In this document: positions 6,619-61,197 of the stretch, piece by piece
Layout of the letters: the number at the start of each line of letters is the position of its first letter
Position numbering within the stretch: position 1 is the first letter of the stretch
From: Microcaldota archaeon
Lineage (GTDB): Archaea; Micrarchaeota; Micrarchaeia; Micrarchaeales; CABMGC01
DNA length: 61,197 nt
Assembly (NCBI GenBank): GCA_021851065.1
Contig: JAJZJQ010000006.1
Coordinates: forward strand, 1 to 61,197
Direction: 5' to 3'
The notes under the pieces: model-generated
What the model saw: the letters and a program-made list of their open reading frames with translations, nothing else
What the model was told of the DNA's origin: nothing
The model's database searches: none
Position numbers and translations under genes: made by a program

Positions 6619-6622
6619 ATCC

Positions 6623-7141
6623 ATGGCAAAAGTCATGTACCGCTCGCGCCTGTTCCGCGTTGAGAAATATGGATTTAGCAGAGGCGCAAAGACCATGATG
6701 TTCGACAGGATCCTTGGGCCTAACACAGTCACCGTAGTCCCGGTGTTTGGCGACGGCAGGATACTTCTTGAGAGGCAGTACAGGCACGCCATAAAGAAAT
6801 ATCTTTATGAGCTTCCCGCAGGCCACATCGATCCGGGGGAGACGCCAGCACAGGCAGCCTCAAGGGAGCTGGAGGAGGAAGTCGGATACAGGCCCGGGAA
6901 GCTATCAAAGCTCTACGCGGCGTACGTGTCCCCGGGGACCAAGACGGAGCTGCAGACATGCTTTGTGGCCACAGATCTGCGCAGGACAAAGGCCAGCCCG
7001 GAGGAGGACGAGATAATAACAACAAAAGCAGTCACGCTGGATCAGGCACTGCGAATGGCGCGCAGCAACGCTGTGCGCGACATGAAGACAATAGCAGCGC
7101 TGCTTTTCTACGCCAGGTTCAGGTCCAGGTCAGGCACATAG
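6623..7141 (+). CDS. NUDIX hydrolase (ADP-ribose pyrophosphatase-like)
   Basis: NUDIX box GHIDPGETPAQAASRELEEEVGY; start taken at ATG 6623 just after the preceding stop. Confidence 0.9.
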   Translation: MAKVMYRSRLFRVEKYGFSRGAKTMMFDRILGPNTVTVVPVFGDGRILLERQYRHAIKKYLYELPAGHIDPGETPAQAASRELEEEVGYRPGKLSKLYAAYVSPGTKTELQTCFVATDLRRTKASPEEDEIITTKAVTLDQALRMARSNAVRDMKTIAALLFYARFRSRSGT

Positions 7142-7827
7142 ACCGCCCTTCTCCTGTTGTCGTAGCTCCTGAGCTGCTTTCTTAGCGCCTTGTAATCCGG
7201 GCACAGCGACTCTACCACGCTCCAGAACCTCCCGGAATGATTGAGCTGCTTTAGATGCGCCACCTCGTGGGATATTATGTATTCCTGCAGCTCAGCGGGC
7301 AGCATGGAGATGCAATAGTTTATGGTTATCCTTCCCTCGCTGCTGCACGCGCCCCACTTCCTGTATTTCCTCACCTTCACCTCCTTCACCTCTGCGCCTA
7401 TCAGCGAGGCCTTGCTACGGGCCATGCCTGGTGCAATCCTCTGCGTGTCCTCCCTTGTTATCCTGTCTATCAGCCTCTCCGCGCCCCTGGAATCCCTGGC
7501 GTACAGCATGAGGGTATCTCCTGCTATGTCTGCCTTTGGCCTTCCTGCGTGAATGACATGCCTCACCTTGTATCTATTTGAACCGTGCAGCACTGATCCC
7601 GAATCGAACAGCCTTATTGTGCTCTTTATCTCCTTGTAGTGCCTTGCTATCCAATCCCTGTGCTTTGAGATCACCCTGTGCATCATCCTCTCGCTTCTTG
7701 ATACGACCACAAGCCGCTCGTCCTCGAACCTAAGGTAGCTGTTTCTTATCCAGGGCTTTTGGACGAACCTGGTGGCTATGGTGTTTCCATCTACTTCTAT
7801 CGAGCCGTCCATCCAATCACTTCGCAT
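7108..7827 (-). CDS. YgjP/DUF45 (M48-like) metallopeptidase
   Basis: KWGACSSEGRITINYCISMLPAELQEYIISHEVAHLKQLNHSGRFW (HExxH). Confidence 0.85.
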   Translation of the reverse strand: MRSDWMDGSIEVDGNTIATRFVQKPWIRNSYLRFEDERLVVVSRSERMMHRVISKHRDWIARHYKEIKSTIRLFDSGSVLHGSNRYKVRHVIHAGRPKADIAGDTLMLYARDSRGAERLIDRITREDTQRIAPGMARSKASLIGAEVKEVKVRKYRKWGACSSEGRITINYCISMLPAELQEYIISHEVAHLKQLNHSGRFWSVVESLCPDYKALRKQLRSYDNRRRAVYVPDLDLNLA

Positions 7828-9574: not shown

Positions 9575-9646
9575 CGCTACTCACTGGCTAAAGCTATATA
9601 AGCTAATTAACTAATATTTCTAAGCGTATATAAACATGGCGAGATT

Positions 9647-10210
9647 ATGGAGAGAGTACTTGTTGTAATAAAGCCTGACGGGATAGAGAAGGCGCTGATA
9701 GGCACTGTAATACAGAGGTTCGAGCAGTGCGGTCTAAAGGTGGTTGCACTAAAGATGCTAAAGGCAGATGCAGGTCTTGTTGGCAGGCACTATGTTGAAG
9801 ACAAGGACTGGATGCTAGACGTCGGCAAGAAGGCCAAGAAGAGCGCCATGGAGAAAGGGGAGACGGTCACCGAGACCGAGCTTGAGATAGGGCAGAGAGT
9901 CAGAAACGCTCTCATAAGGGAGCTCACAAGGACTCCTGTGGTGGCATTTGTGATGGAAGGCAATGCGGCTGCGGAGATCGCAAGAAAGATCACCGGAGGC
10001 ACAGAGCCAAGGAAGGCAGACCCTGGCACAATACGCGGAATGTACTCAAGCGACAGCTATGCCCTTGCGGACAAGACAAAGAGGTCAGTGCGCAACATAA
10101 TACACGTCTCAGAGAACGCGCAGATTGCTGAAAAGGAGATAGCAGTATGGTTTAAGGAGAGCGAGATAGCAACGTACCGCAGGGCAGACGAGCAGGCTAT
10201 GTATGGCTAA
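9647..10210 (+). CDS. ndk: Nucleoside diphosphate kinase with an internal insertion
   Basis: MERVLVVIKPDGIEKALIGTVIQRFEQCGLKVVALKM, KADPGTIRGMYSSDSYALADKTKRSVRNIIHVSEN; longer than the usual NDK core. Confidence 0.92.
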   Translation: MERVLVVIKPDGIEKALIGTVIQRFEQCGLKVVALKMLKADAGLVGRHYVEDKDWMLDVGKKAKKSAMEKGETVTETELEIGQRVRNALIRELTRTPVVAFVMEGNAAAEIARKITGGTEPRKADPGTIRGMYSSDSYALADKTKRSVRNIIHVSENAQIAEKEIAVWFKESEIATYRRADEQAMYG

Positions 10211-15383: not shown

Positions 15384-18300
15384 CTACTTGCACTCTGCCA
15401 AGTTCAGCCAGCTGCCGCAGCCAGTTGTGCTTATGCAGGCATTTGCGCCATTGTCGCTGTCCCCCGCCTGCGAGCCTGAGCACACGAGCGATGTCACCCT
15501 GTTCTGCGACAGCGTGCTACCAGGCGACTGCGCAAGCGCCATCCCCTGCCCATGCGAGCTGCCGCTTACTGTGTTGTTGATCAGCTGCGAGTACCCGCTG
15601 CTGACAAGGGATATGCCCTGCCCGCTGTTTAGCACAGCGTTGTTCCTTATGCTGCTGCTGTTGAACCTGTAGAGATATATCGCGGAGCTGGCATTGATTA
15701 CGTTGTTCCCTATGACTGACGATGACTGCACATTGCTTATGTAGATCGCGTTGCCGGTTGCCCCTGCTATGGTGTTGTTAAGCACCTGCACCCCAGATAT
15801 CATTCTTCCAGACGATGTTATCGTTATTGGGTTGTTAAATCCAACGAGCACGCAGTCCTCTACTGTAACGCTGCTGTTTGTGGAGTTAACGAATGCGCCG
15901 CCGCCAGATGCAAACACTGTGTGGCCGTTGCAGTTTATCGTCGTGCCTGAGGCGCTCAGGGTGCTGTTTGAGCGTATGTTGAAGCATGTGCTTGCATAAG
16001 GGTAGTACATGTCCGAGGTGAAACTGACCAGGTCCGGGCTGGTTATTAGCGTGCACTGCTGCTGCTTTGTAAGTATGGTGGGGCTTGTTGCAACCAGCCA
16101 CCTGCACCCAGACTTGGTCACTCCTGTATTCATGCGCCCCTTCTGCGCGTATACTCCTGAAGAATACTGGTCACAGTAGAAGTCAGCCCCTGAGTTTGCC
16201 AGTGCGCTGTTGTTGTATATCATGTTGTCCCGTGAGCCGGCAATGTAGAATCCATACACGCTAGCATTCTCGCTGTTGTTAACCAGCAGGTTGTTGAATG
16301 CCCTGTTCAGCAGGAAGCCGTAGCCTGATCCAGAGCTGCGTGCAGAGTTGTTTAGCATTCTGCTGTCGTTTGTCTGGTTGAGCGAGAATCCGTATCCTGC
16401 ATAATTGCGCACAGAGACATTTGACACGGATGCGTTGCTGCTCCTGCTAAGCAGCACCCCTGCGTTAACCGCGGATATGAGGGATGAATTTAGCGTGATG
16501 CCTAAGGAACCTGCAATGTTTATTCCGTAATCGAAGCCCGCTATCCTGCAGCTGTGTATGTCTATATTGTTCTGGCCGCTAACCTCAAATGCTGCAGTAG
16601 ATGCAGCTCCCTGGCCAGTTATCCCGTGCCCGGCGCAGTCTATGGTCACGTTGCTCGCCTCTATGTCAAAGCATGTGCCCTGCGTGAGAAGGTTTCCTGT
16701 GATGGTGTAGCTGCCAGGTGAGACTATGGGCCTGCACGCGCCTACCGGGTAGCTTACCAGGTTAGGCAGGCTCTTTACAGGGCAGCTGGTTGCCCAGTTG
16801 CAGTCCGTGCTCCTGCATGCCGTTCCAGACAATGTTATGTTTGTTGAGTTGTATGTGCTTGCCGTGCAGTAGAAGTCCGTCTTGTAGCTGGGCATCACCG
16901 ATCCGCCCTTGAAGTATATGCTTGTTGCGTTGTCAGTGAGCACTCCGTACGTGTTCTCAGACGCGTTTAGTCCCGTGACCGTGGTGTACACTGTGTTGTT
17001 CAGCAAAATCCCGTAGTTGTTGCTACTTGTTATGTCTGATGTCAGGTTGCCATTCGTGGAATTCGTTATGTATATCCCATAGCCGTTGTTCTGCGCAGTC
17101 ACTGAGTTTATCCTAAAGCGCACTACCCCGTTCATGTACACTCCGTACGTCCCGTTATATATCCTGCAGTCGCTTACTGTAACGTTGTACTGCCCCGCGC
17201 TGCTTATCCCAAGCGGCGCGTTTGATATGCTGTGCCCGTTGCAGTTCAGGGACACGCTTGATGCGTTTATGGAGATGCACGGGGAGTCTATGCCCTGCCT
17301 GTCCGAGATGTTCAGGTAGTCCGCGAGATTGAGATCCCTGTTGATTGAATAGCTGCCGCTGTTCACTATAGTGCCGCACGAGCTTATCGTGCTGCCAAGT
17401 CTAATGGCCGATATTGCAGACTGGTTGTTTATCTGCGAGCAATATGCGAAATTGCACTGATCGTTCACATAGCACGTTGTGTTGTAGAACCTGTTCGAAG
17501 CCCTCGGGGCAGAGCCTGCATTGCAGTAGAAGTCAACAGGGCTGCCTACCATTGTGCTGTTGTACACCGCGTTGCCCGTGGAGTTTGAGAATGTGATGCC
17601 GTAGTATGAGTTGTAGTCGGATGTCGTCTTCTCGAACGTGTTATTGGTGCCAAGGGCTATGTTTATCCCGCCTCCCTGCCCCCCAGAGCTGCTCACCTGG
17701 TCACCGTAGAACAGGTTGCGGCTTGAGCTGTTTATGAGAAATCCCGTGAGGGTTGAGTTGTCTATCGTAATGTTGGATACGGTGTCATGGCTTGTGCCTG
17801 AGAGCAGCATGCCGTAAGAGAACCTGGATAGCGAGATATCTGTAACGCTGACGTTGCTATGGGACACTATGCTTATCCCATAGGTGTACGGCGCGGTAGT
17901 GACGAACGGTCCGTTGCCCAGTATGCTGTGTCCCTCTCCAAGAAGGCGCACGTTGTTTGCCCTTATCGCTATGCAGCTGCCATTGTATATGGATGTGCTT
18001 ATGTCGCCAGTAAGGTAATATGTTCCCGGAGCCGTTATTGCAGTGCATGAGTTTATCTCGTATAAGGACTGCTGCGAAGTAGTGGTCGTAGTTCCGTATG
18101 AGACACTGCTTGTAAGGGCGTGGTACACCAGAAGCCCGAGCAGTGCAACAGCTATAACTATTATTGCTATTATTGGCATCCTGCTTGAGCCACGCGGCTT
18201 AAAAGTAGAGCTAACCTGCTTCTTTTGGGGCTGCGCAGGCGGCTGAGATGCCATTTGCATCTGCTGCTGCGGCGCGGAAGCTGCCTTTTGCTGCTGTTGC

Positions 18301-18398
18301 TGCACATTCTGCTGCGGCTGTCGCTGCTCTTCATCATCTTTGGCCTGTGCAGCGCCTGCACCTGGCTGAGTTCCCTTCTGCTGAGTATCGTTTGCCAT
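15384..18398 (-). CDS. Membrane-anchored parallel beta-helix (NosD/PbH1-like) surface protein, 1004 aa
   Basis: Gln-rich N-terminus, single TM, repeated 'NVTVSDCRIYNGTYGVYMNG...NSTNGNLTSDITSSNNYGILLNNT' units. Confidence 0.8.
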   Translation of the reverse strand: MANDTQQKGTQPGAGAAQAKDDEEQRQPQQNVQQQQQKAASAPQQQMQMASQPPAQPQKKQVSSTFKPRGSSRMPIIAIIVIAVALLGLLVYHALTSSVSYGTTTTTSQQSLYEINSCTAITAPGTYYLTGDISTSIYNGSCIAIRANNVRLLGEGHSILGNGPFVTTAPYTYGISIVSHSNVSVTDISLSRFSYGMLLSGTSHDTVSNITIDNSTLTGFLINSSSRNLFYGDQVSSSGGQGGGINIALGTNNTFEKTTSDYNSYYGITFSNSTGNAVYNSTMVGSPVDFYCNAGSAPRASNRFYNTTCYVNDQCNFAYCSQINNQSAISAIRLGSTISSCGTIVNSGSYSINRDLNLADYLNISDRQGIDSPCISINASSVSLNCNGHSISNAPLGISSAGQYNVTVSDCRIYNGTYGVYMNGVVRFRINSVTAQNNGYGIYITNSTNGNLTSDITSSNNYGILLNNTVYTTVTGLNASENTYGVLTDNATSIYFKGGSVMPSYKTDFYCTASTYNSTNITLSGTACRSTDCNWATSCPVKSLPNLVSYPVGACRPIVSPGSYTITGNLLTQGTCFDIEASNVTIDCAGHGITGQGAASTAAFEVSGQNNIDIHSCRIAGFDYGINIAGSLGITLNSSLISAVNAGVLLSRSSNASVSNVSVRNYAGYGFSLNQTNDSRMLNNSARSSGSGYGFLLNRAFNNLLVNNSENASVYGFYIAGSRDNMIYNNSALANSGADFYCDQYSSGVYAQKGRMNTGVTKSGCRWLVATSPTILTKQQQCTLITSPDLVSFTSDMYYPYASTCFNIRSNSTLSASGTTINCNGHTVFASGGGAFVNSTNSSVTVEDCVLVGFNNPITITSSGRMISGVQVLNNTIAGATGNAIYISNVQSSSVIGNNVINASSAIYLYRFNSSSIRNNAVLNSGQGISLVSSGYSQLINNTVSGSSHGQGMALAQSPGSTLSQNRVTSLVCSGSQAGDSDNGANACISTTGCGSWLNLAECK

Positions 18399-31182: not shown

Positions 31183-32898
31183 GTGGCAAACTACCTAAGC
31201 CAGGCCCCAGGCAACGTGGTGACGAGCAACATGAGTGCCGGGATAAGCGGTCCTATAGGTATATCATTCTCCCCGTCGGGCAGCTATGCATACTTGATGA
31301 ACTACCCCTCTAATCTTGTGATAATAAGCACACCATCCAACTCGGTAGTGGGCGCCATAACACGGGGCCTTTATGATGCGCAGTGGGTTGCCATAGCTCC
31401 TTCTGGCACATATGCATACGTGACTAATTACGCTGCAGACAACGTAGTCATAATAGACACAGCGACCAACACTGTAAGTGCGTCGATATCTGGCGGCTTC
31501 GACTTTCCGTATGGCGTCGCCTTCTCCCCTTCTGGCACTTACGCCTATGTGGTAAACTGCAATTCCGCATGCGGCAGCGGACCTTCGAGCAACATCGTCA
31601 TAGTGAGCACGGCTTCCAATTCTGTTGTCGGTGCCATAACCTCCGGCTTCGACAATCCTTATGACGTGGCGTTCTCCAAGGACGGATCGTACGCATACGT
31701 GACAAACTACAACAGCGCAAACGTGGTGATAATAAGCACATCCTCCAACTCCGTTACAGGGGCCATAACCTACAACGGATTCTCCAATCCCTACAGCGTG
31801 GCCTTCTCTCCCTCCGGCACTTACGCATATGTTGGTGACGGGGAAGCATCCAAGGTGTTCATCGTGGACACAGCCACCAACACTGTGACTGGTTCCATCG
31901 CAGCGTCTGTGCACGGTCCCTATGGCATCGCCTTCTCTCCCTCGGGAACGTATTCTTACATATCTGAATATTTCCTCAGCAAGGTTGACGTAGTGGGCAC
32001 GGGCTATCCTGACAACGGGTTCACATACAGCATCCCATCCGGCCAGGATGGCAGCACCCTTGTAGCTAATGTTGCCGTAACGGACAGCAGCGGCCATAGC
32101 GCAAATTCCATCAATACTGGCATACTGTACGTCTCATCCCAAGCCACCACGCTACCGCAGGGCGGAGGGCTTGCGATACGGGGCAGCGGAGGAAGCGGAG
32201 TAAGCACACAGATCAGCTCCTCCACATCCAGCACCACTTCGATAGCCTCGACTACCACAGTCTCACCTACCGCAACTGTGCAGTCTATACTGCCAACATC
32301 CACAATCCCGCAGCCTCCAATCGAGATATCTGTGGTACCTACTGGAGAAACAACTCCGCAACTGTGTAGCGGCGACTCATACGGATACAATATAACCTAT
32401 ACTTCTCTTGGGACGACGTTTGAGGTTGCTCCAGGGGTACACGGTTGCTTCAACATGACTGCCATCAATGCCACTTCTGGGCATTTCAGCAATTCAAACG
32501 GGCTTATCGAGGCTGTCAATTTCACGACCAGCAACAATAACATCACCCCGGAAGCCATTATGCATTATCCATGCAGCTACTCATCCTATGGCGTGGCGCC
32601 GTTCATACTGGGAAACGGCAGCTGGTCTGAGATAAGGCCATTCGTTGTGAATGCCATGGCATGCTCTGTCACGTTTGCAGTGCCTAGCGACCCGGTTATA
32701 GCAATAATGCGGATCAACGTGCAGAACCAGACCAGGAGTGCAACTACCTCGATCACAGCGACCCAGCCAAAACAGCAGTCAGGTTTTCTGCTTCTGCTAT
32801 GTGTGATAATCGCCGTAGTGATACTGGCGATTGCTGCCTTATCCGTCCTGTCCAGAAGAAGGCGAAGGAGAGGATTTAGGAGACGCAGGTTCAGATAG
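31183..32898 (+). CDS. YVTN/NHL-type beta-propeller surface protein with C-terminal TM; likely 5'-truncated
   Basis: Repeats 'GIAFSPSGTYAYVTNYNSANVVIISTSSNSVTGAI'; C-terminal FLLLLCVIIAVVILAIAALSVLSRRRRRRG; GTG start, no signal peptide. Confidence 0.75.
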   Translation: MANYLSQAPGNVVTSNMSAGISGPIGISFSPSGSYAYLMNYPSNLVIISTPSNSVVGAITRGLYDAQWVAIAPSGTYAYVTNYAADNVVIIDTATNTVSASISGGFDFPYGVAFSPSGTYAYVVNCNSACGSGPSSNIVIVSTASNSVVGAITSGFDNPYDVAFSKDGSYAYVTNYNSANVVIISTSSNSVTGAITYNGFSNPYSVAFSPSGTYAYVGDGEASKVFIVDTATNTVTGSIAASVHGPYGIAFSPSGTYSYISEYFLSKVDVVGTGYPDNGFTYSIPSGQDGSTLVANVAVTDSSGHSANSINTGILYVSSQATTLPQGGGLAIRGSGGSGVSTQISSSTSSTTSIASTTTVSPTATVQSILPTSTIPQPPIEISVVPTGETTPQLCSGDSYGYNITYTSLGTTFEVAPGVHGCFNMTAINATSGHFSNSNGLIEAVNFTTSNNNITPEAIMHYPCSYSSYGVAPFILGNGSWSEIRPFVVNAMACSVTFAVPSDPVIAIMRINVQNQTRSATTSITATQPKQQSGFLLLLCVIIAVVILAIAALSVLSRRRRRRGFRRRRFR

Positions 32899-48729: not shown

Positions 48730-51700
48730 TCAGCGTGACATGGAAAACGCGCTTAGCCCTCCTGCGCACATGTTGCTCCAGTCCACTGCGAACTGGTAAG
48801 AGCCTTGGGGGAAAGACACAGTCACGAAGTTCGGTATGGATGGATTCGATACAAGTCCGTTCCATGCTTCCCCTGAGAATACCGAGCTCCATGCGCTGGA
48901 TGAGCCTTCAGGCCTGTAGAATGCCTCCATCTCATCGTCCGCAGCCTCCTGGAAAACATACGTGCCGCTAAGTGGCAGTGTAGTCACCGCGCTGTACACT
49001 GTGGTATTCTGCGCAGACCCGCCGCAGCCTACCTCGCTGTTTAGCAGGCCTAGCGAAGCTGGGAACGGGGATACGGGGATGCCGAAGTAGCTTGCTCGGT
49101 AAGAGCTTGTGCCAAAAGCCCACTGCTGGCTAGTGCCGCCTTCGATCCCAGAGGACCACGACCCGGATTCTGCTGACTGGTACGAGGTTACGAAATCAGT
49201 GGGGTTAGCCGACACCGCAGCGTACGATATGGATGGTATGCCTGAAGGCAGCTGCCACGCATTCACCGTCCACACCTCAGGCTGTACCGACTGCGCGCCA
49301 AAACCCATTGACTGCCATTCCCCGCTGGCAAGGGGCGACTGCCCAAGGTTTGCATTATACTGCGTATCAGGATTGAGAGGTGACGCATTCAAGCCAACAT
49401 ATTCGTATACTACCGAGTTTGCGGCTCCGCTGTTTCCATTTCCAGAATAATCCTGAGCACTGCCGTCAAGCGGCCACCATCCTGAAAGGCCTTTGCCGCT
49501 TACCGGGCCGCCGCTTATTCCCTCTTGGTACAGCTGGCTTACCTGCTGCGCAGAGAGCGCGCCGTCGTATGTCTGTATGTCGGCCAAAGAGCCATCAAAA
49601 AGGTACGGCGCCTGCGTAGCCCCATACAAAGAGCCTATATTGCCACCGATGGCAAAATCATTGGCGCCTGGGTTTGACTCTTCCTGCCCGGGCTGCGGCG
49701 GGGCTATGAAATTGCCGTTCACATAGAAGTCAACAACGCCAGATCCTCCAACTCCTGCGCCGGTCATTGTTATGGCAATGAAGTTCCAGCTGTTGAACGT
49801 AACTGCACCGCTGGATGAGCTTGCAGCATACCAATTGCCTGGCTCAGCAGAGTTCCAGGTGTTTAAGTTTATCTGGCCGCTGGGGGTCACATCTATGTAC
49901 ATGGTCACGTCCGGGATTCCCTCGCTATAGATCATGCCTATGCCTGAACCAGAGCTAAGGGGGTATACCCATCCAGATAATGTCCAGGTTGCCTTGTTAT
50001 TGAGGGGAGCTCCTCCGGTGCCGCTTATATAGCTGCCTTCTGCGTCGAAATACGCTGCAGTGGGTCCTACTGTCCCAAGCTGCATTGGCGAGCCCGAGAG
50101 GAAGATGTTTGGCATAGATGCATTAAGGCATACTGCATTGTAGCTGCACCCTCCTATTCCCGGGATTGGCGCATAAGAGCCCGACGCGCTTGCCGGGGAG
50201 GCACTGTCGAGCTGGTATCCCTGGGGCTGCACATAATTCACGTCCGTGGCTATAGCATTGTTTCCATTGCCGCTGTAGTCGTTCGTATTCCCGTCAAGCG
50301 GCCACCAGCCAGAGAGTATGCTGTTGGATATCGGGATATCCCCAATGCCCTGCTGGTATAGCGCATATATCTGCGAAGACGTCAGCGTAGCGCCATATAT
50401 CTGGACATTGGATATGCTGCCGTCGAAATACAGCTGCTGCTGGTCTGCCGGATCAAATCCTATGTAAAACGGGCTAGGCGAATTCAGCAAATGCTGCGAA
50501 TCCTGGCACGAGGACGACGGGGTTTCCCCATTAAGGTAGCACTGCGCATGCACTCCATTAACATACGCGGTGACTGTGCCTGTAGTGTAGTTGTACTGCG
50601 CGGCTACGAACTGCCAGGTGCCAGTCACAGCGGGCCCAAAGCAGTTGTCATAGGCCCCGTATATCACGAAATCGTAGAACCCATAGCATCCATTCACGGT
50701 GTTTGTAACTTTCAGCTCCCAGTTATTCGCCGAACTGCCTCCCTGCCCTATTATTCCGCGGTTGCCTACAACGTTGGAGGAATAAACCCATGCCGTAACC
50801 GTCAAGGCGCGCGTAGGCATCTGCATCGAGGCAACAGAAACCTGGCTTGTGGAGCCACCGAATGCCGCTACATTCCTGTTGTATCCTGTGAATGTGAACA
50901 TGCCGTACGCAGACCGGGCCTGCATGTCTCCAGCTGCCCGCTGCAGGTAGTCTGGCGCATAAGGCGAGGTGAAATATTTCTGCGATGACACTGCCCCCTG
51001 CAGCCCTGTTACATTGAGCACGGACAGTCCAGGGCCGTACAGCAGCACCCTCTGTCCGGTCTGCAAATATGCCTCTGTTCCACCTGTCGCCGAAGGGAAT
51101 ACAAGATACGGTATTGGGGGAGGAGTGGAAAGCTCCTGCGTTATGAGGCCGCCGTACTGGCTAAGCACATTGCAGCCATTTGAGGTTATGGCCTTTGCGT
51201 CTGGAGTCACAATTATCACTTGTCTACTGTACGGCGGCTCGTCCAGTGGCACAGGGACAGGCAGACCGCCGCACACTGTAGGGCTGTTTATGGTGTATAC
51301 CGTGCCATAAACAAAGCCGCTGGTATTGCCGTACTGCGCATAGCTGCTGCCTATGTTAGTGGCCAGCCCGTATGCGCTGCCAAACTTCACGGGCCGGTAT
51401 ACGCCCTGCTGCGCATAGAACAGGTCTGGGGTGCCGTTTATCGGCACCGAAACATTGACAGGTATGGTGTAGGAATAGAATCCTGTGGAGGTATTGACAG
51501 TGAGGCTCTCGGTGTAACGTATGTCTATCGAATACGGATTCTGCTGCGATACAACCGGCTTAGTCTCCTGGATGCTAACCTGGCGCGATCCTGTGGCTGT
51601 TGCAGAAATTATCATGGAATTGTACGCTGTAAGCGTGGAGCCGGACATATACGATGCTATGGTGTCTGCAGCTGCAGAGCCCGGCGGCACATTTGGGAGA

Positions 51701-52065
51701 GTGCCGTTGACTATAAGGTACTGCAGGTACATGCTTGCGTTTGATATGAAATTCGAGCCTCTGAGCGACGGATCCATCTCGTATTTTGCAAGCGCTGCGA
51801 TTGCAGCCATTCCGCTGCCGTATGCGAACGGGGCAGCTCCATTCTGCACTATTGCCGCATAGCTGCCTGTGCTTGATGACACTACAGATCCCTGCGCTAT
51901 GCTGTCATATCCTATGTTTATGGCTACAAAAACGGCAAGAGAGACTACCATCAGGAGAACGAACATAAGCACGGCTATGGACATGAGCTGGGCCTTCGTG
52001 CCCCCTTCAATAAATCTGCGCCATCTCACCTCCAAGAGTATGCACCAATGCTGTAACCTTTCCAT
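48730..52065 (-). CDS. Giant membrane-anchored LamG-domain protein (1111 aa)
   Basis: N-terminal GGTKAQLMSIAVLMFVLLMVVSLAVFVA; LamG modules with LSGWWPLDGNTNDYSGNGNNA and LSGWWPLDGSAQDYSGNGNSG. Confidence 0.8.
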   Translation of the reverse strand: MERLQHWCILLEVRWRRFIEGGTKAQLMSIAVLMFVLLMVVSLAVFVAINIGYDSIAQGSVVSSSTGSYAAIVQNGAAPFAYGSGMAAIAALAKYEMDPSLRGSNFISNASMYLQYLIVNGTLPNVPPGSAAADTIASYMSGSTLTAYNSMIISATATGSRQVSIQETKPVVSQQNPYSIDIRYTESLTVNTSTGFYSYTIPVNVSVPINGTPDLFYAQQGVYRPVKFGSAYGLATNIGSSYAQYGNTSGFVYGTVYTINSPTVCGGLPVPVPLDEPPYSRQVIIVTPDAKAITSNGCNVLSQYGGLITQELSTPPPIPYLVFPSATGGTEAYLQTGQRVLLYGPGLSVLNVTGLQGAVSSQKYFTSPYAPDYLQRAAGDMQARSAYGMFTFTGYNRNVAAFGGSTSQVSVASMQMPTRALTVTAWVYSSNVVGNRGIIGQGGSSANNWELKVTNTVNGCYGFYDFVIYGAYDNCFGPAVTGTWQFVAAQYNYTTGTVTAYVNGVHAQCYLNGETPSSSCQDSQHLLNSPSPFYIGFDPADQQQLYFDGSISNVQIYGATLTSSQIYALYQQGIGDIPISNSILSGWWPLDGNTNDYSGNGNNAIATDVNYVQPQGYQLDSASPASASGSYAPIPGIGGCSYNAVCLNASMPNIFLSGSPMQLGTVGPTAAYFDAEGSYISGTGGAPLNNKATWTLSGWVYPLSSGSGIGMIYSEGIPDVTMYIDVTPSGQINLNTWNSAEPGNWYAASSSSGAVTFNSWNFIAITMTGAGVGGSGVVDFYVNGNFIAPPQPGQEESNPGANDFAIGGNIGSLYGATQAPYLFDGSLADIQTYDGALSAQQVSQLYQEGISGGPVSGKGLSGWWPLDGSAQDYSGNGNSGAANSVVYEYVGLNASPLNPDTQYNANLGQSPLASGEWQSMGFGAQSVQPEVWTVNAWQLPSGIPSISYAAVSANPTDFVTSYQSAESGSWSSGIEGGTSQQWAFGTSSYRASYFGIPVSPFPASLGLLNSEVGCGGSAQNTTVYSAVTTLPLSGTYVFQEAADDEMEAFYRPEGSSSAWSSVFSGEAWNGLVSNPSIPNFVTVSFPQGSYQFAVDWSNMCAGGLSAFSMSR

Positions 52066-54383
52066 GTGCCTGTAGTGTAATTGAGTATCGCCGTGGGAGC
52101 CGACTGCGCGCTTATGGAGTATGCATTAAGCGACGCGCTGGAATTGTACGAGACCTTCACGGCCATCACATTTCCTACTGGGAATGCCGCAGAGTACTGC
52201 TGTGCGTAGTTGTTTGTGTTGCCCTCTAGCGGCAGCCACTGCAAAAGATGCTGCCTTGACAAGGGTTGCCCGGATATGCCTTCCCTGTACAATATGCCTA
52301 TCTGCCCTTGCGTGAGCGATGAGTTGTACAGCTGCACGTTAACTACATTGCCATTGAAGTATGTGTCCCATGCCCCTATTATGCCTGTATCAAGGCCCAT
52401 GCATCCTACGTTCTGCTGCACAGGGGTGGGGTAATTATTGTTGTTTATGTAAGCAGTAGGTATTCCCTGGGTCACTGTTATCGCAGTGAATGTCCAGTTG
52501 TCAATGAAATTGCCGTTTTCTGACCACTGCGCGGTTCCCTTCGAACTTCTCGCCTCGAATCTTACGTTGCCGTCATCTGACTCTATGTCAAGCCAATTCC
52601 CTGGCACCATGGAGAAGTACGAGGCCACGCCTCCCCTAACGCCTCCGGGCATGCCCAGATCGTATGACCAGGCGGACAGTGTGAAATTGCAAGAGGTCCA
52701 CTGCGGCTGTACCGTCGGCGCCACCAGGTAGCTGTTGCTAAACAGCGTGGCATACATGAGCGGTCTGTTGTTTGCTATTATCGTGTAGTTGGAGTTGCCT
52801 CCAAGGGTTCCAAGGAGATACTGGGCACAGCTGCCCTGTCCGTTCATATAAAGCGTTGCTGCCGCAGCAAGCACAGAATCGCCCAGGTTTGCCGGGCACG
52901 ATCCAAATGCCATAAGGTGCGAGCCCTCACTCACAAATAGCATGCCGTACGCCAGCGCCATATACGGGTTAAGCGAGCCCAGATTCGGCAGGCTGCTTGG
53001 ATAAACGCTGCTGCTGACCTGGCTATGCAGGTAATTTAGGTATATGTTCTGCCCCTGCCCATATGGCATCAGCACACTTGCGCTCACTGCCCCTGTCGTA
53101 AGGTTCTGGGCAGTCAGATTCGAAATCCCCCACAATGCATATGCGTCTTGCGATGACATCACAGGGGTCCTGTTATACGGGGTTCCACCGTAGGAATAGG
53201 GGTCCATATACGAAGACCACAATACATTCCCGGTCTGGTTATAGTCAAATATGCTACTGCCGCTCTGTGCAACTATGCCGCCTTTGTAGATTGACACGCC
53301 AGTTGCAGCGCCTCCTACTGTACCAAAAGTCAATATGTTGCCTCCCAAGGAAAGCAGATAGACGTCGGTACCGTCGCCTACCGCGATTATATTGCCATAG
53401 GTGGATATGCCTGAAGGATCCTGCGCCATATCTACCGACCATATCGTGCCTGCAGCATACGTGCTGTTGTATATTGGGGTATAGAGCGATACGCTTGGGT
53501 TGCTTTTAGGAAGCGCCTGTCCGGCTTGGGCTCCAACTATGTCTCCTCCTGCATTTGCTACGTATCCTATCCACGATGTTGCCGAGCCCGATATGCCTAT
53601 GGTGGTGCCGTTGTTAGGGTATACTGCATAGAGCGCATGGCCATTGATGAACGGGCCTACATCGTGGCCGTAAGTACCGACCAGAAGTTTTCCATTCAGG
53701 ATGGACAGAAGCGTAGGATAATCATTTACGTTTGGCTCGCTCACAGGCCCTACGCCCGTAGGCCACAGAAGTCCAACCGACCATTCTACTGCTCCGTTAC
53801 GCGCGTTAAGTGCAGTCAGGTTTGCTACCGTTGCGTATATGAGCATGCCCCCATAGACGAGCTGATCAGTCACGGCAGGCTGGTAGCCTGCGGAGCTGTA
53901 GTATATTCCATTAGGCGGCGCATAAGACGTCCACAATATATTTCCGGTTGTGGCATTTGCGGCATATATCTCATTGCCTGCTGCAAAATAAACATTGCCG
54001 TAATCCGCAACAATCGTCCCGTTATTGATCAATCCGACTGCGTTTACGGTGTATGCCAGCGTTAGGGACTGCGGCCCTGCAGGATTGCCTGCGTTGTTGT
54101 ACTCGTTCTTCAGCCTCATATCCCATGTCTGGTTAGATGCGCTTCCCTGCCGTATCATGGACTGTACCAGGGGCTGCTGTGAGAGCGACGAGAGTGCTGT
54201 GGCTTCAAGGTTGCTGACCAGGTTGCTTGCAGAGGTGTACTGGACCGCAAAGGAGAGCTGCGGCGCATACACGAAATATACCAGCAGGGCTATGCCTGAT
54301 GCCGCTATAAGCAGAGCGAATATCGCGTCAAGGGTAAATACTATGGCCTTCGTCATCCCACCCCGGCTGTGGTATTGGACCAC
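52026..54383 (-). CDS. Pilin-like N-terminus + PQQ-type beta-propeller + LamG protein
   Basis: MTKAIVFTLDAIFALLIAASGIALLVYF; VYFAAGNEIYAANATTGNILWTSY; WTSCNFTLSAWSYDLGMPGG...WTFTAITVTQGIPTAYIN. Confidence 0.75.
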   Translation of the reverse strand: MVQYHSRGGMTKAIVFTLDAIFALLIAASGIALLVYFVYAPQLSFAVQYTSASNLVSNLEATALSSLSQQPLVQSMIRQGSASNQTWDMRLKNEYNNAGNPAGPQSLTLAYTVNAVGLINNGTIVADYGNVYFAAGNEIYAANATTGNILWTSYAPPNGIYYSSAGYQPAVTDQLVYGGMLIYATVANLTALNARNGAVEWSVGLLWPTGVGPVSEPNVNDYPTLLSILNGKLLVGTYGHDVGPFINGHALYAVYPNNGTTIGISGSATSWIGYVANAGGDIVGAQAGQALPKSNPSVSLYTPIYNSTYAAGTIWSVDMAQDPSGISTYGNIIAVGDGTDVYLLSLGGNILTFGTVGGAATGVSIYKGGIVAQSGSSIFDYNQTGNVLWSSYMDPYSYGGTPYNRTPVMSSQDAYALWGISNLTAQNLTTGAVSASVLMPYGQGQNIYLNYLHSQVSSSVYPSSLPNLGSLNPYMALAYGMLFVSEGSHLMAFGSCPANLGDSVLAAAATLYMNGQGSCAQYLLGTLGGNSNYTIIANNRPLMYATLFSNSYLVAPTVQPQWTSCNFTLSAWSYDLGMPGGVRGGVASYFSMVPGNWLDIESDDGNVRFEARSSKGTAQWSENGNFIDNWTFTAITVTQGIPTAYINNNNYPTPVQQNVGCMGLDTGIIGAWDTYFNGNVVNVQLYNSSLTQGQIGILYREGISGQPLSRQHLLQWLPLEGNTNNYAQQYSAAFPVGNVMAVKVSYNSSASLNAYSISAQSAPTAILNYTTGTWKGYSIGAYSWR

Positions 54384-54889
54384 ACTTCTATCTCCATGCT
54401 TGCGGCAGCTCCGTTGTCAAGCACAACAGGCACCACAGCATACTGCACCGCAGTGGAGTTGCCTGCTGCAGGGTCTGCTCCCATGCTTATATTGAACTGC
54501 CCTGGGGAATCTATCACTATGTGGTAGTCGTAGCTCACTCCAAGAAGCTGCTTTGTGGCCTGGTAGTTGTAGTTCGACATGGCCATTAGCGCCATAGCCT
54601 TGTCAACGGATATGGTTCCTGCTGACCCGCTTCCAAGACCTATTGTAACATTAGACCACGTGGCCACCGAATTCACTCCTACTGCGTTATTCCAGTTGTT
54701 CGGTATGCCCTGCCCCTGCAGGCTCTGCACCAGGTTATTGAGCTCTAGCTGCATGAGCCCTGTGCCAAGCCCGTATGTAAGCTCATACTGGCTGCTCATG
54801 CTGTTCCACACAATGCTAAGCAGCGAGATGGCTACAGTGAAGATTATGAGCGAGAATATCATGTCTATTGACCAGAACTGCAGCTTCAT
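54353..54889 (-). CDS. Pilin-like membrane protein (178 aa)
   Basis: MKLQFWSIDMIFSLIIFTVAISLLSIVW N-terminal helix; overlaps both neighbours. Confidence 0.6.
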   Translation of the reverse strand: MKLQFWSIDMIFSLIIFTVAISLLSIVWNSMSSQYELTYGLGTGLMQLELNNLVQSLQGQGIPNNWNNAVGVNSVATWSNVTIGLGSGSAGTISVDKAMALMAMSNYNYQATKQLLGVSYDYHIVIDSPGQFNISMGADPAAGNSTAVQYAVVPVVLDNGAAASMEIEVWSNTTAGVG

Positions 54890-57800
54890 GGATTCACCCC
54901 AAGCGCAGCGCTCTCAGACACATAGGGGGGCATTCCTGCGCTGTATAGCTGCTCTATCTGCTGCGGCGATAGGGCGGTGCCGTATATCTGCACGTCGGCT
55001 ATTGTGCCGTTGAAGAAATTGAGGTAAGATCCCGGCACTCCGGACCAGGATCCTATTGTTGTTGGCATTGACGACGCAATGCGCGTGCCGGCCATGGGTC
55101 CGTTATAGCTGAGCACTCCGTTTATGTACATCTTCGCCGTAGTCCCATCCCATGTGCCTGCCACAAAGGACCAGCTGTCAAGCGGAACATTTGCTGCAGT
55201 CAGGGGTTCTATCCAGCCGCTGCTAAACGACTGCCCGAATGCCAGCTGAGAATTTCCTTTGGTGTATGTACATCCGGATTCTCCGGGCTGGCAGCCGATA
55301 GCCAGCTCGTATCCTCCACTGCTGCCGGATCCCTGTCCAACGATATCGAGCCTGTTTACAGAACCTGCGTTGCCAAGGTTCGACATGCTCACAGGATACA
55401 CCCACGCAGCAAGCGTTATCGGGCCAGTATCCTGCACTCCGTTAGCCACTACGACATTGCCTCCTGCTCCGTTGAAATACATCCCGTATCCGGAAAGCGA
55501 GGGCGTGGCCTTGGGTACGCCCAGATCGGCCTGGTAATACTCGACATTGTATGCCTTGGTCTGAACGCCTCCATTTCCGTAGTTGTTGGAATTCCCGTCA
55601 AGCGGCATCCATGCCGCCAGGGAGCTGTTTATTATTGGCGCAGATCCAAGGCCTGCGCCATATATGGATTGGAGCTGTACCGGCGTCAGCGCAGCGCTGT
55701 ATATCTGCACGTCAGAGACCATGCCTGGGAACATGTCCGTATATGCTGTACTAGACGGCCCCGACGAGCCTATCGAATAGGGGAACGCACCTTGCCTCCA
55801 TGTTGTGTCAGGGCTGCACTGCTGCAGCACTGCATTCAAATAGAAGCACAGGGCCGTCTCGTTATAGGTTGCCTGGACAAGGTACCATGTGCCTGGCAGA
55901 TACGGCGAATTTGCGCATGCTGCTGTGTACGCGCCGTTGTTTCCCTGGCCGAAGGTCCAGGCGCCAAACGTGTTAAGGCCGCAGATCTGGTTGGCTCCTA
56001 TGTAATTATCCCAGTTCTGCCATCCGCTGCCTACTACCGCATCCCTGTACCATGTGTCGGACTGCACATTGGGGGTGCTTGGCATGTTCACCCATGCCGA
56101 GAGGGTGAAACTGTTTGTGGCTGCAATCACGGAGTTTATTCCTGGTATGACTACGTTACTGTCGTAGCCGTCAAAGCTTCCTGCAAGGACCTGCACGCTT
56201 TTGTACTGCGGTGCGCTGTATGGCGCAGGCGCAACCCCCCCGAAAGCCGTAGCATTGTATCCGTTTCCGCTGTAGTCGTTCGTATTCCCGTCAAGCGGCC
56301 ACCATCCAACCAGCCCTGATGGCAATGGGGCTCCTCCTATGCCCTGCTGGTATATGCTCATTATCTGGCCCTGCGTCAGCGCAGCTCCATATATCTGCAC
56401 GTTTGCCATGCTCCCGTTGAAGTGATTGTTGTTGAACTGGCTGTTCCATGCCTGGTGATAGCCTATCTCAGCTCCTCCAAGGCCCGTAACAGGGGAGACG
56501 GCGCTGCCCTCAGTATACGTCTTTAGCGCGGCAGGTACGCCATCTATGTACACGTTGAAATCAGAAGGCACAATGCTGCTGCCGGCTGCCGAATTGAATG
56601 TGCATGCTACGAAATGCCATTTCCCATCGTCTACCATCGAGATTGTATGGCCCCCTATCCAGACGTTGTTGCTGTCAACCCCGCAGTTCACTGTGCCAGG
56701 GCTTGCGCCCTGGCCCCCATTGAAACCTATCTCAAGTGTTATGCTGTCTCCAGGACCGCTTCCCCTATCCTGCACTATGGGGTTTGACCCATGCGACGAT
56801 GTCTTTATCCATGCTGCGATCGTGTAAGATGTCACGGCGCTCTGCAGGTACGGCGTGCCTATATAGCCGCTTTGACCATCGAGCAATGTGACGTATTTTG
56901 GCGCTGCCCATGATACGCCGAGCACGTTCCCGTTATGCATTCCGTTTCCGATCGCATCGTGCACAACCGCTCCCTGACGTTCGTTCATGGGCCACCATCC
57001 CAAGAGGTACTGCGCAGTCGATGAGTTTCCGTTGAATGCGGTGATCCCGACATCAGAAACTCCGCTTTCATTCTGCTGCGTGATGAATGCGGTGCTCAGG
57101 CCGTTGGCGTCAGTCACAGAGTATGGCAGCACACTGTTTGTAGACACGCTCCCTATGCTTGCCGAATACGATACCATGTAGCCCGCAGCCGGGATGGCAG
57201 TGCTATTGGTTACGATGGAAGATATTTGCGCAACTCCCTTGAACAAACCCTCGCCCTCCTGGGCAAGATTGTATCCGTTTCCGCTGTAGTCGTTCGTATT
57301 CCCGTCAAGCGGCCACCATCCAACCAGCGCGCTGCTTGTGACCGGGTGCCCGGCTATGCCTGCGTCTACCAGCGAATTGACCTGCTGCGCGGTTAGTACA
57401 GTGCTGTACACCTGTACGTTGGATATCAGTCCGTTGAACGGCCCGCTTCCTGAAGTCGCAGAGCTTGGGGCTCCTATGGTCATGGAGCTTGCCTGCGAGC
57501 CTATGAGGCCTGAGGCATAGCATCCCGCGATAACATTTCCGTTTATGTACAGGTACAGGTTGGAGCCATCAAAGGTGAACACAACTGATGTCCAGGTGCC
57601 CGGGGCCACTGTTGCATGGCTGGTGCAGCTTCCTCCGTTGCTTGTGCCTGCTGTGACCTTGTCTGACGAGTACTGTATGTAGTTGGTATCAGAGCCGGAA
57701 CCTCCCTCGTCATATGCTATCTGGCCGGAGCCTTGTCCCTGTGCCGGGTCTATCCACATAGACACAGTCTGCACGCTGCTAAGGCTGTTCCATGGGTAGA

Positions 57801-58347
57801 GATAAAGGCGCGATGTAGCCCCGCCAAACATCATGGCGCCTGTGCTGCTCTCGTATGCAGAGAGCTGGGCTGGCAGTGCCTGGGATGATGGGCAGGAATA
57901 GTCTATGCAGACTGTTCCAAAAGAGTTCTGAAGGGTTATCGTACCGCTGCTTTGCGAAGTAGGTATGTTATAAGACTGCCCGCTCTGAGAAAGGTACATG
58001 GGGTTTGACGCTATGCCGTATGAGGTGGCCGAGGAATACGCGCTTATGACCTGGCCGAACGTATTTGTAGCCACCATCACCTCCCCCGATTTCGTTATCG
58101 ACAGGTTGTACTGCAGCAAGCTGAGGGAACCCGGCAGCCTTATCGTAGCGTTGTATCCGTTCCCGGCATATGTTGCCGCGGTTATGCTGGAAGCTATCTC
58201 CTGGGCTATGACCTGAAGCTCTGAGAATGCCTGCTGGTTGGATGCCTGTATGCGCTGCTTGCTTACCGAGTAGAAGACAACTGTGAATGCAAGGAAGACG
58301 AAGATGAACACCATCAGGTAATCGAACGCTATCTGCAGCCTTGACAA
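54886..58347 (-). CDS. Giant pilin-like/LamG multi-domain protein (1153 aa)
   Basis: MSRLQIAFDYLMVFIFVFLAFTVVFYSV; several LamG modules each followed or preceded by 'GWWPLDGNTNDYSGNGYN'. Confidence 0.8.
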   Translation of the reverse strand: MSRLQIAFDYLMVFIFVFLAFTVVFYSVSKQRIQASNQQAFSELQVIAQEIASSITAATYAGNGYNATIRLPGSLSLLQYNLSITKSGEVMVATNTFGQVISAYSSATSYGIASNPMYLSQSGQSYNIPTSQSSGTITLQNSFGTVCIDYSCPSSQALPAQLSAYESSTGAMMFGGATSRLYLYPWNSLSSVQTVSMWIDPAQGQGSGQIAYDEGGSGSDTNYIQYSSDKVTAGTSNGGSCTSHATVAPGTWTSVVFTFDGSNLYLYINGNVIAGCYASGLIGSQASSMTIGAPSSATSGSGPFNGLISNVQVYSTVLTAQQVNSLVDAGIAGHPVTSSALVGWWPLDGNTNDYSGNGYNLAQEGEGLFKGVAQISSIVTNSTAIPAAGYMVSYSASIGSVSTNSVLPYSVTDANGLSTAFITQQNESGVSDVGITAFNGNSSTAQYLLGWWPMNERQGAVVHDAIGNGMHNGNVLGVSWAAPKYVTLLDGQSGYIGTPYLQSAVTSYTIAAWIKTSSHGSNPIVQDRGSGPGDSITLEIGFNGGQGASPGTVNCGVDSNNVWIGGHTISMVDDGKWHFVACTFNSAAGSSIVPSDFNVYIDGVPAALKTYTEGSAVSPVTGLGGAEIGYHQAWNSQFNNNHFNGSMANVQIYGAALTQGQIMSIYQQGIGGAPLPSGLVGWWPLDGNTNDYSGNGYNATAFGGVAPAPYSAPQYKSVQVLAGSFDGYDSNVVIPGINSVIAATNSFTLSAWVNMPSTPNVQSDTWYRDAVVGSGWQNWDNYIGANQICGLNTFGAWTFGQGNNGAYTAACANSPYLPGTWYLVQATYNETALCFYLNAVLQQCSPDTTWRQGAFPYSIGSSGPSSTAYTDMFPGMVSDVQIYSAALTPVQLQSIYGAGLGSAPIINSSLAAWMPLDGNSNNYGNGGVQTKAYNVEYYQADLGVPKATPSLSGYGMYFNGAGGNVVVANGVQDTGPITLAAWVYPVSMSNLGNAGSVNRLDIVGQGSGSSGGYELAIGCQPGESGCTYTKGNSQLAFGQSFSSGWIEPLTAANVPLDSWSFVAGTWDGTTAKMYINGVLSYNGPMAGTRIASSMPTTIGSWSGVPGSYLNFFNGTIADVQIYGTALSPQQIEQLYSAGMPPYVSESAALGVNP
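56254..56314 (+). repeat. 61-bp exact direct repeat, copy 1 (in LamG gene)
   Basis: ATTGTATCCGTTTCCGCTGTAGTCGTTCGTATTCCCGTCAAGCGGCCACCATCCAACCAGC, identical to 57268-57328; 38 bp of it also at 50270-50307. Confidence 0.9.
57268..57328 (+). repeat. 61-bp exact direct repeat, copy 2
   Basis: Identical to 56254-56314. Confidence 0.9.
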
Positions 58348-58821
58348 CTACACCACCGGTTCCATGTATACGCACTCCTGGCTTGGGTTGCTCGGGCATA
58401 TCGACTGCGCACTGACATTCACAAGGTACGTGCCCTGGCTTGCGAGCCCGCCTAAGTTGCCGCTTACGTTTACCGGGGTATACACTCCCACATCGCTCGT
58501 GTTGGTCGCAGACACTATCTCAAATATTATCTCATGGCCCACTCCGCCTATTATGTTCCCAACGAATATGTTCGTCACCCCTGGGGGCACTGTCACCTCC
58601 ACATACTGCTTTGCAGGGGGGCCTTCGCTTCCAACTAGCGTTGCTGCGCTGGACAGCTTGCTTGCGGCCTGCTGCGACTCTATCCCGGAGAGCGATATGT
58701 TGGCGCTAGATACCTGTATGTATGCAAGCGTAGCTACTGGCAGGAGAACTGCAAGTCCAAATGAGAGCGTTATCAGCAGCTCAAGGCTTGCCTGTCCTTT
58801 TGTGCGTGCATTGCCCATCAA
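58348..58821 (-). CDS. Pilin-like protein with class III signal peptide
   Basis: MGNARTKGQASLELLITLSFGLAVLLPVATLAYI: KGQASLEL cleavage-type motif followed by hydrophobic helix. Confidence 0.75.
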   Translation of the reverse strand: MMGNARTKGQASLELLITLSFGLAVLLPVATLAYIQVSSANISLSGIESQQAASKLSSAATLVGSEGPPAKQYVEVTVPPGVTNIFVGNIIGGVGHEIIFEIVSATNTSDVGVYTPVNVSGNLGGLASQGTYLVNVSAQSICPSNPSQECVYMEPVV

Positions 58822-59930
58822 ACCTTCCTTCCAGTGAGTATAACGTCGTGCCTGTTCTTGACCTCCCTTAACATCTTGGCGAGCATGTCCTTTAGGGTGG
58901 CATCTAGCGAATAGCCTGAAACGTTCACCGAAACCACTCCGCCACGGGCAAGTCCCATGCGCCCCCTTAGCTCATACTCCCTGGACTTGACCCTCTTCAC
59001 ATTTACGGCCATGTAATCCACCCTGCTGCCCTTGAACCTATCTACCCTGTCCGCCAGGGCCTCAAGCTCTGCAACAACATCCTCCTCCATCTCCCTCAGG
59101 TCAGGATCCGTCATGCCCGAAACGACTATGTTCCTCTTCTCCTCGTTGATTCCCTTCACCACTGTCTCAAGCACGTCCCTGACCGTGATTATGCCCACGG
59201 GCCTGCCGTTCCTTATCACCGGCAAAGAGGATATGCCGTTCTCCACAAAGGACCTCAAAGCGTCGTCCACTCCCTTTCCGTAGTCTATAGTATGCATGTT
59301 CCTCTCGCATATGTCTGCCACTTTTATGTGGCCTTTTGAGACCGGCAGTTCAGGCAGCTTCCTTCGGATCACCATGCCGTACTCCATCATATTCTTTGTA
59401 GTCAGTATGCCAAAGAGCCTGCCCCTGTCAAGCACGGCAAGCCTCTTTACCCTCTTGTCTCTCATCGCGGCCCTTGCCCTGTCCACGCTCGCCTCCTGGT
59501 CTATGGCTATTATCGGCGTAGACATTATATCGCTTACCCTGACCTTTGACATCAAATGCATCGAGAGTATGGCTTTTAGGATCTCCCCTCTCCTTACCAC
59601 GCCTGTTATCTTGCCCTCCACTGCGAAAGGCATGGCCTTTGCCGCAAGCGAATAGAAGAGCGATATCGCCTTCTTAATCTCAGTGTCTTTTGTGAGGGCA
59701 GGCAGCTTCCTGGCCACCTTTCCCACAGGAAAGTTCCTCTCCACCCTAAGGGACCCAAGGCTTGTGGCAACTCGCACGTCCACTATGCCGTAATATTCCC
59801 CATCTCTTGTCACTATCACGGCACCCATGCTGCTTATCTTTGGCAGCGCTGCAGTTATTGGGTCCTTGAAATCGTATGATATTGCTTCTGATACAAACTC
59901 GCCAGGCACAGTCCCGAATGGAATCCTCAA
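58818..59930 (-). CDS. CBS-domain protein (four CBS-like repeats), TTG start
   Basis: VSDIMSTPIIAIDQEASVDRARAAMRDKRVKRLAVLDRGRLFGILTTKNM; NGISSLPVIRNGRPVGIITVRDVLETV. Confidence 0.88.
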   Translation of the reverse strand: MRIPFGTVPGEFVSEAISYDFKDPITAALPKISSMGAVIVTRDGEYYGIVDVRVATSLGSLRVERNFPVGKVARKLPALTKDTEIKKAISLFYSLAAKAMPFAVEGKITGVVRRGEILKAILSMHLMSKVRVSDIMSTPIIAIDQEASVDRARAAMRDKRVKRLAVLDRGRLFGILTTKNMMEYGMVIRRKLPELPVSKGHIKVADICERNMHTIDYGKGVDDALRSFVENGISSLPVIRNGRPVGIITVRDVLETVVKGINEEKRNIVVSGMTDPDLREMEEDVVAELEALADRVDRFKGSRVDYMAVNVKRVKSREYELRGRMGLARGGVVSVNVSGYSLDATLKDMLAKMLREVKNRHDVILTGRKV

Positions 59931-60515: not shown

Positions 60516-61197
60516 CTACTTTCCTCTTCCAGTTCCCCTCCTTCTGCTATAAATGTAAAACGCAACGGCTCCAAGTACTGCGCATGCAATGCCTATGCCT
60601 GCATATATGAGGTACTGCACAACATTGGCCTTGCTAAGGTTTCCTGATATGAGCGCCACTGTTACATTTCCTCCTGCCACACTGAATGTAACGGTGCATG
60701 AGCGCGGGTCTACAGTATAGTTGGTTATCTTGCTCCATGTGCCGTTTACAAGCTCATACGGGGCTATCGAGCCCGAAGGAGTGCTGCAAGGGTACCTAAT
60801 GGTAGCCTCTACCATTGACAAAGCATGCGAATATGTCAGGTTTATCGCAGATATGACTGTTGCGCCTGGCGGCAGCAGCAGCTGCCCGGCAACGTTCTCA
60901 AGCGTGACATTCACTTTTGAATTATTTGACGACTTGGGATAAAGCCTGAGTGTGGCATTGGATGCGGTGAAATTTACCACTGCAGGCGATGTCACTGAGG
61001 CATTTATTCCTATAACAACCACGTTCGCGGCGCTAGGGATTGGGATGGGCTTTACTGTTATCGGCAGTACCGTGGTAGTAGGCGCCGTAGTGCTTACTGA
61101 GGTTGCCTGCACCGTGGTGGTTGTAGTTGACGATGTAACTACGGATGTGGTTGGCAAGGTCGTCGGGGCCGTGGTGCCGTATGCTCCACTGCCGCCT
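60516..61197 (-). CDS. C-terminal part of a Thr-rich, membrane-anchored surface protein (continues beyond window)
   Basis: TTSVVTSSTTTTTVQATSVSTTAPTTTVLP linker; ATIRYPCSTPSGSIAPYELVNGTWSKITNYTVDPRSCTVTFSV module; C-terminal TM and basic tail. Confidence 0.75.
   Translation of the reverse strand, partial: GGSGAYGTTAPTTLPTTSVVTSSTTTTTVQATSVSTTAPTTTVLPITVKPIPIPSAANVVVIGINASVTSPAVVNFTASNATLRLYPKSSNNSKVNVTLENVAGQLLLPPGATVISAINLTYSHALSMVEATIRYPCSTPSGSIAPYELVNGTWSKITNYTVDPRSCTVTFSVAGGNVTVALISGNLSKANVVQYLIYAGIGIACAVLGAVAFYIYSRRRGTGRGK

Follow-up and report, generated by a model that had tools for sequence, protein, structure and literature searches.

The stretch of DNA analysed here, referred to throughout as the window, comprises 61,197 nt of contig JAJZJQ010000006.1 from a Microcaldota archaeon (GCA_021851065.1; a source genome of 1.13 Mb in 36 contigs). 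Its subject of interest is a run of six minus-strand open reading frames (ORFs) that overlap or abut by a few bases, in the order CBS, pilA, LamG1, small, PQQ and LamG2. All five of the products other than the CBS protein carry a pilin-type N-terminus, with K/R at -2 and G/A/L at -1 followed by a hydrophobic helix, and we consider the operon a candidate pilin set. A first-pass annotation of the letters had described a six-gene overlapping operon at this place, and reading the ORFs and junctions directly bore that out; its coordinates and strand stand, but we prefer different starts for pilA, PQQ and LamG2. The features are as follows.

58818..59930, minus strand: gene 1, HibA-family candidate of 370 aa; CBS module (about residues 1-264) and an HPF/RaiA-like C-terminal domain (about 265-370); three CBS matches in Pfam
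58348..58818, minus strand: gene 2 (pilA), predicted class-III pilin; start ATG 58818; leader ending in TKG, then QASLELLITLSFGLA
54886..58347, minus strand: gene 3 (LamG1), candidate modular pilin of 1153 aa; RL, then QIAFDYLMVF, then four LamG domains (Laminin_G_3 x4)
54353..54889, minus strand: gene 4 (small), candidate core minor pilin of 178 aa; KL, then QFWSIDMIFSLII
52026..54356, minus strand: gene 5 (PQQ), candidate modular pilin of 776 aa; start ATG 54356; KA, then IVFTLDAIFALL; PQQ-type propeller and LamG
48730..52035, minus strand: gene 6 (LamG2), candidate modular pilin of about 1100 aa; probable start TTG 52035; TKA, then QLMSIAVLMFVLL; two LamG domains (Laminin_G_3 x2)

Operon layout and conserved gene order

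Read from the sequence, the CBS/pilA junction is TGATG, a 1-nt overlap with the better pilA start at ATG 58818, the pilA stop TAG is directly followed by the TTG of LamG1 (0 nt), and LamG1 and small share ATGA, a 4-nt overlap. The small/PQQ junction is also ATGA if PQQ starts at ATG 54356 and not, as first annotated, at GTG 54383, which would make the protein nine residues longer. PQQ and LamG2 overlap by 10 nt given a LamG2 start at TTG 52035, which we prefer over the earlier choice of ATG 52065 because relatives begin at the equivalent M-E-V/I/M, mostly with a 10-nt overlap. The domain content first proposed (CBS, LamG, PQQ) agrees with the Pfam matches, which for the PQQ protein are PQQ_2 and a weak Laminin_G_3 under the curated cut-off. 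Pfam matches to Wzy_C, GH115_C and PAAR were sub-threshold and were rejected, and NCBIfam matches to TafC, far under their cut-off, were discounted as probably reflecting only a common LamG domain.

Is this arrangement a peculiarity of one genome? The first-pass annotation had named non-conserved gene order as one thing that would refute it, and the order proved to be conserved across dozens of Micrarchaeota genomes. The full CBS-pilA-LamG1-small-PQQ-LamG2 order was present in most of 20 relatives whose loci were fetched around the 178-aa gene, and it recurs among 80 named loci, labelled nearly all as Candidatus Micrarchaeota with a few as Marsarchaeota or "bacterium"; a second family has the four-gene block LamG1-small-PQQ-LamG2 without CBS-pilA. 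With starts taken as those of the longest ORFs, the median spacings along the operon are -14, 4, -4, -1 and -10 nt. Relatives with proteins just ~30-70% identical keep both the order and the near-zero spacing, and chance is not a sufficient explanation for either. PQQ and LamG2 come and go jointly: at loci of at least 18 kb both were found in 31 of 39 (two of these partly masked), neither in 8 of 39 and one alone in 0 of 39. pilA is present in 54 of 60 relatives and small in 223 of the 295 genomes of the phylum. Apparent pilA-LamG1-small "fusions" of 1464 and 1453 aa (L074, L076) were rejected, as they run through stretches of masked N.

Pilin-type N-termini, motor genes and the older pilin set

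The first-pass annotation had counted at least four pilin-like N-termini, and the N-termini of homologs raise the number to five. In each family K/R stands at -2 in ~85-99% of homologs, and the -1 residue is mainly G or A, with L in many pilA and in some LamG1 and small. Pilins typically have a buried acid at a set position of the helix, which a plain anchor rarely has. In pilA, K/R at -2, Q at +1 and E at 5 were found in 31 of 31 homologs; among homologs with the motif, LamG1 has E or D at 5 in 52 of 52, small has D6 in 75 of 75 and PQQ has D6 in 58 of 58, all these counts being conditional on placing the motif, outside which up to 12 sequences per family fall, mostly with truncated ends or as acid-keeping variants. 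The acid is therefore at +5, as in pilins, in pilA and LamG1, and at +6 instead in small and PQQ. LamG2 has none: its 53 homologs show K/R at -2, G/A at -1 and S/T at 4, with no acid among the commonest residues at 5/6. A simple scan for class-III signals across the 56 ORFs of the window was strong for four of the five pilin genes and picked out nothing else with an acid at 5/6; pilA was missed, being masked by an equal-length ORF on the opposite strand. The PQQ protein is set apart from tip adhesins of the PilY1/PilC type, which are non-pilins with a C-terminal beta-propeller, since it has a pilin N-terminus itself.

AlphaFold models cover small and LamG2. That of small has a helix (3-58) and a four-stranded antiparallel sheet, with a predicted local distance difference test score (pLDDT) of 87, and LamG2 has an analogous arrangement ahead of its LamG domains: a helix (3-76), more helices and a sheet of four strands (141-187). 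Judged by its secondary-structure pattern, the model of small has a pilin-like fold, in agreement with the earlier expectation of such a fold and not an ordinary anchor. Foldseek matches for LamG2 were dominated by its LamG domains and were uninformative on a GspK-like core, and sequence profiles of small and pilA run against the PDB gave nothing credible.

The statement that the window contains no pilus ATPase or platform protein still holds, yet these genes adjoin the operon elsewhere. At 46 of the 56 related loci with enough sequence to judge motor linkage, two TadC genes, then a small gene and a T2SSE ATPase, lie downstream of the last pilin gene, tail-to-tail with it. In the window's own genome the orthologous motor is on another contig, C36, where T2SSE and two T2SSF were confirmed, and the stretch of C36 that was read holds no pilin gene. 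With the operon short of a motor and the motor short of pilins, the two probably work in trans; Halobacteria also have pilins in trans to their motor, and such an arrangement was inferred for Haloferax PilB3 (Makarova et al., 2016; PMC4858521). The T2SSE beside the pilin set in distant families is ~40-53% identical to the T2SSE of C36 as against ~25-32% to the genome's two others. One A24 prepilin peptidase was found in the genome. A second type IV pilus locus (L147, positions 4118-9863, on the genome's contig C6) encodes a T2SSE of 520 aa, two short TadC-like proteins and pilins with the motifs KAQMSLEM, KLQTSLEF and RAQFATIEALM.

Distant families around small reveal a set of two Q-x-x-x-E pilins, a Q-[YFV]-[FWL]-S-x-D subunit, a GFxFTxDA subunit and an acid-free GFxFTxx subunit, the last being the counterpart of LamG2, ~280-690 aa long and usually the largest. 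In L180, L187, L188, L189, L194 and L196 this set continues into T2SSE, and into TadC as well where the contig extends far enough. LamG is absent from most of these sets, though present in L191 and L196, and in two others the proteins that follow small, of 1166 aa (L177, 9793-13290) and 1578 aa (L178, 10223-14956), combine pilin N-termini with Ig-like/beta-helix modules and not with LamG. Because the distant sets are mostly without LamG, and some stand within a T2SSE/TadC locus, the LamG and propeller domains of the window's proteins appear to have been grafted onto an old conserved core. All ten LamG matches in the window's genome lie on proteins with pilin-type N-termini; those outside the operon (L149, 7616-9429, contig C11; L150, 7382-8374, contig C4) have N-termini of the QxxxEYLMTYxWAI kind. 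Other likely surface proteins in the window are a NosD/beta-helix protein (15384-18398), a beta-propeller protein (31183-32898) and a Thr-rich protein with a C-terminal membrane helix (60516-61196).

Gene 1 and the HibA family

The CBS protein had been taken to suggest nucleotide-responsive control. Its CBS domains are confirmed, but that interpretation has to be revised, as the full-length profile of gene 1 matches the ribosome-hibernation factor HibA. The match, to chain H of 9SR9, is a single stretch (16-361 against HibA 14-371) that runs through the CBS module; 9SR9 is HibA-ATP, and HibA has four CBS domains and a C-terminal HPF/RaiA-like domain (PMC13324472), the architecture of gene 1. 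Pfam recognizes three CBS domains in the module, which aligns with the four-CBS HibA from position 16. The C-terminal domain has no match in Pfam; its profile found 7 matches in the whole PDB, four of which are bacterial HPF-family chains (E 0.003-0.6). Gene 1 is the only full-length HibA match in its own genome and, on this profile evidence, it is probable that it encodes a hibernation factor of the HibA type.

Why should a candidate hibernation factor stand beside a pilin gene? At 16 of 20 further pilA loci HibA is the gene immediately upstream of pilA, in the same orientation, and at the remaining 4 it is nearby but separated, on the opposite strand, or not scored. The 16 include 10 of the 13 loci from the sister family, in which the LamG block lies apart. 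This last arrangement, with pair and block at different places, favors the explanation that HibA-pilA and LamG1-small-PQQ-LamG2 are two units joined by chance in the window's family and that HibA is unrelated to pili. Throughout that family, however, pair and block are contiguous, with starts that overlap, and in the distant L191 one locus again brings together a HibA-like gene, the pilin set and the motor; we regard two chance-joined units as possible but somewhat doubtful. At L201-L219, as at L191, a HibA-like gene adjoins or lies near a pilin gene with the LamG block elsewhere, a possible link of hibernation and pili.

The frequency of the HibA-pilin gene pairing suggests a link between the resting state and attachment. 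A more tentative proposal, which we put forward as a speculation, is that Micrarchaeota couple ribosome hibernation to an attachment pilus: HibA would be co-translated with the structural pilin so that, at low energy, ribosomes are silenced while a lectin-tipped pilus is built to catch, or catch again, a host. The word "pilin" does not appear in the HibA paper (PMC13324472).

A candidate lectin-bearing pilus and its known counterparts

The first-pass annotation had proposed a cell-surface adhesin or tip complex, a reading that is supported in part. We think it likely that the operon encodes the five pilin subunits of an archaeal type IV pilus of the TadC type, three of which bear grafted LamG and propeller modules, together with a HibA-type factor. 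Its product is probably the lectin-bearing, gripping end of a surface filament for holding other cells. The A24 prepilin peptidase of the genome would process the five prepilins, and the T2SSE/TadC motor from the other contig would extrude them into a common filament. PilA, as the conserved structural pilin, would build or start the filament and small would be a core minor pilin, while LamG1, PQQ and LamG2 would prime assembly and present their LamG and propeller domains at the far end of the filament or close to it; there these domains may bind glycans exposed on a partner cell or other surface. As outermost cap LamG2 is the strongest candidate, given its acid-free and usually largest counterpart in distant relatives; GspK, which would be its equivalent in bacterial systems, is also without Glu5. 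With its gene translated immediately ahead of pilA, HibA would couple the level of this pilin to rest or low energy.

Several observations weigh against this proposal. Two subunits have D at +6 instead of +5 and many pilA have L at -1, both departures from the textbook motif, and in Pfam and NCBIfam no product matched the GspH/I/J/K or PilH/I/J/K families. Foldseek with the 178-aa model of small returned no solved pilin and nothing below E 0.001, only ribosomal-protein noise. The motor is not adjacent to the operon in the window's own genome. Some genomes keep small beside TadC/T2SSE without CBS, pilA, LamG1, PQQ or LamG2 nearby (L081, L082, L090, L099, L108, L111 and L136), which makes the modules dispensable. 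Nor is sugar binding a necessary property of LamG domains. Finally, archaeal minor pilins have been placed near the base of the filament by analogy with the archaellum (Makarova et al., 2016; PMC4858521).

That placement leads directly to an alternative, in which the pilin-processed proteins form a short pseudopilus or basal assembly and their LamG domains handle or anchor secreted or S-layer glycoproteins. A further point in its favor is that five subunits with one large acid-free member resemble the pseudopili of the bacterial type II secretion system (T2SS), GspG-K. Very large lectin-type ectodomains are nevertheless better suited to surface display, for which the minor pilins of Streptococcus sanguinis and Myxococcus xanthus provide precedents, and we judge a basal assembly to be unlikely. 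That the products are ordinary membrane-anchored surface proteins (S-layer proteins or adhesins) with an uncleaved N-terminal helix and a superficial likeness to pilins would accord with their single hydrophobic helix and with the abundance of LamG proteins in DPANN, where they are read as surface proteins (Golyshina et al., 2017; PMC5498576), but is highly improbable in view of the invariant helix acid, whose spacing from K-[AGL] is constant across four separate families, the pilin-like fold and the gene linkage to T2SSE/TadC.

If the operon does encode the end of a pilus, it bears on how DPANN archaea hold their hosts, since a lectin-headed pilin set with its motor would be a specific, conserved and testable apparatus. 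Part of this was known: LamG genes linked to type IV pili in Mia14 (PMC5498576), and minor pilins and adhesins in archaeal loci (PMC4858521). We did not find the five-subunit signature, the acid-free large subunit, the grafting of modules in Micrarchaeota or the HibA link in the open-licence literature.

Among archaeal systems, the clade 1/2 type IV pili resemble the present one in having an ATPase and two TadC genes, several minor pilins and large adhesin-like proteins (Makarova et al., 2016; PMC4858521); the five-subunit signature, acid-free subunit and LamG/PQQ grafts of Micrarchaeota are not described there, and the words DPANN and Micrarchaeum are absent from the text. Mia14 (ARMAN) is a member of the Micrarchaeota with an expansion of LamG, some of whose genes are linked to type IV pili loci, and with beta-propeller surface proteins, although the excerpted account does not mention LamG on pilin N-termini, a conserved subunit set or a link to HibA (Golyshina et al., 2017; PMC5498576).

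Two bacterial systems are alike in design. PilA, PilB and PilC of S. sanguinis are locus-encoded minor pilins with large grafted adhesive modules, that of PilC being a ConA-like lectin, and PilABC has been modelled at the tip (PMC9934059). That pilus, however, is a bacterial type IVa pilus with one lectin module, whereas here there are tandem LamG domains, a propeller and a likely cap without the helix acid, the resemblance being one of design. The Tad-pilus tips of M. xanthus, KilL/KilM/KilN, share a Tad-type motor, modular minor pilins with extra domains and a role in cell contact (PMC12075869), but are bacterial, have three subunits and carry other extra domains. In the GspH-K tip complex GspK is the largest subunit and caps the bacterial complex (PMC7248040), and it is GspK that the acid-free subunit of the Micrarchaeota, usually the largest in distant families, recalls, making it a putative cap by analogy. 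The operon may represent the archaeal equivalent of the minor-pilin tip complexes of bacteria, complete with a candidate for an acid-free cap subunit, and in it adhesive modules appear to have been swapped onto a fixed pilin core.

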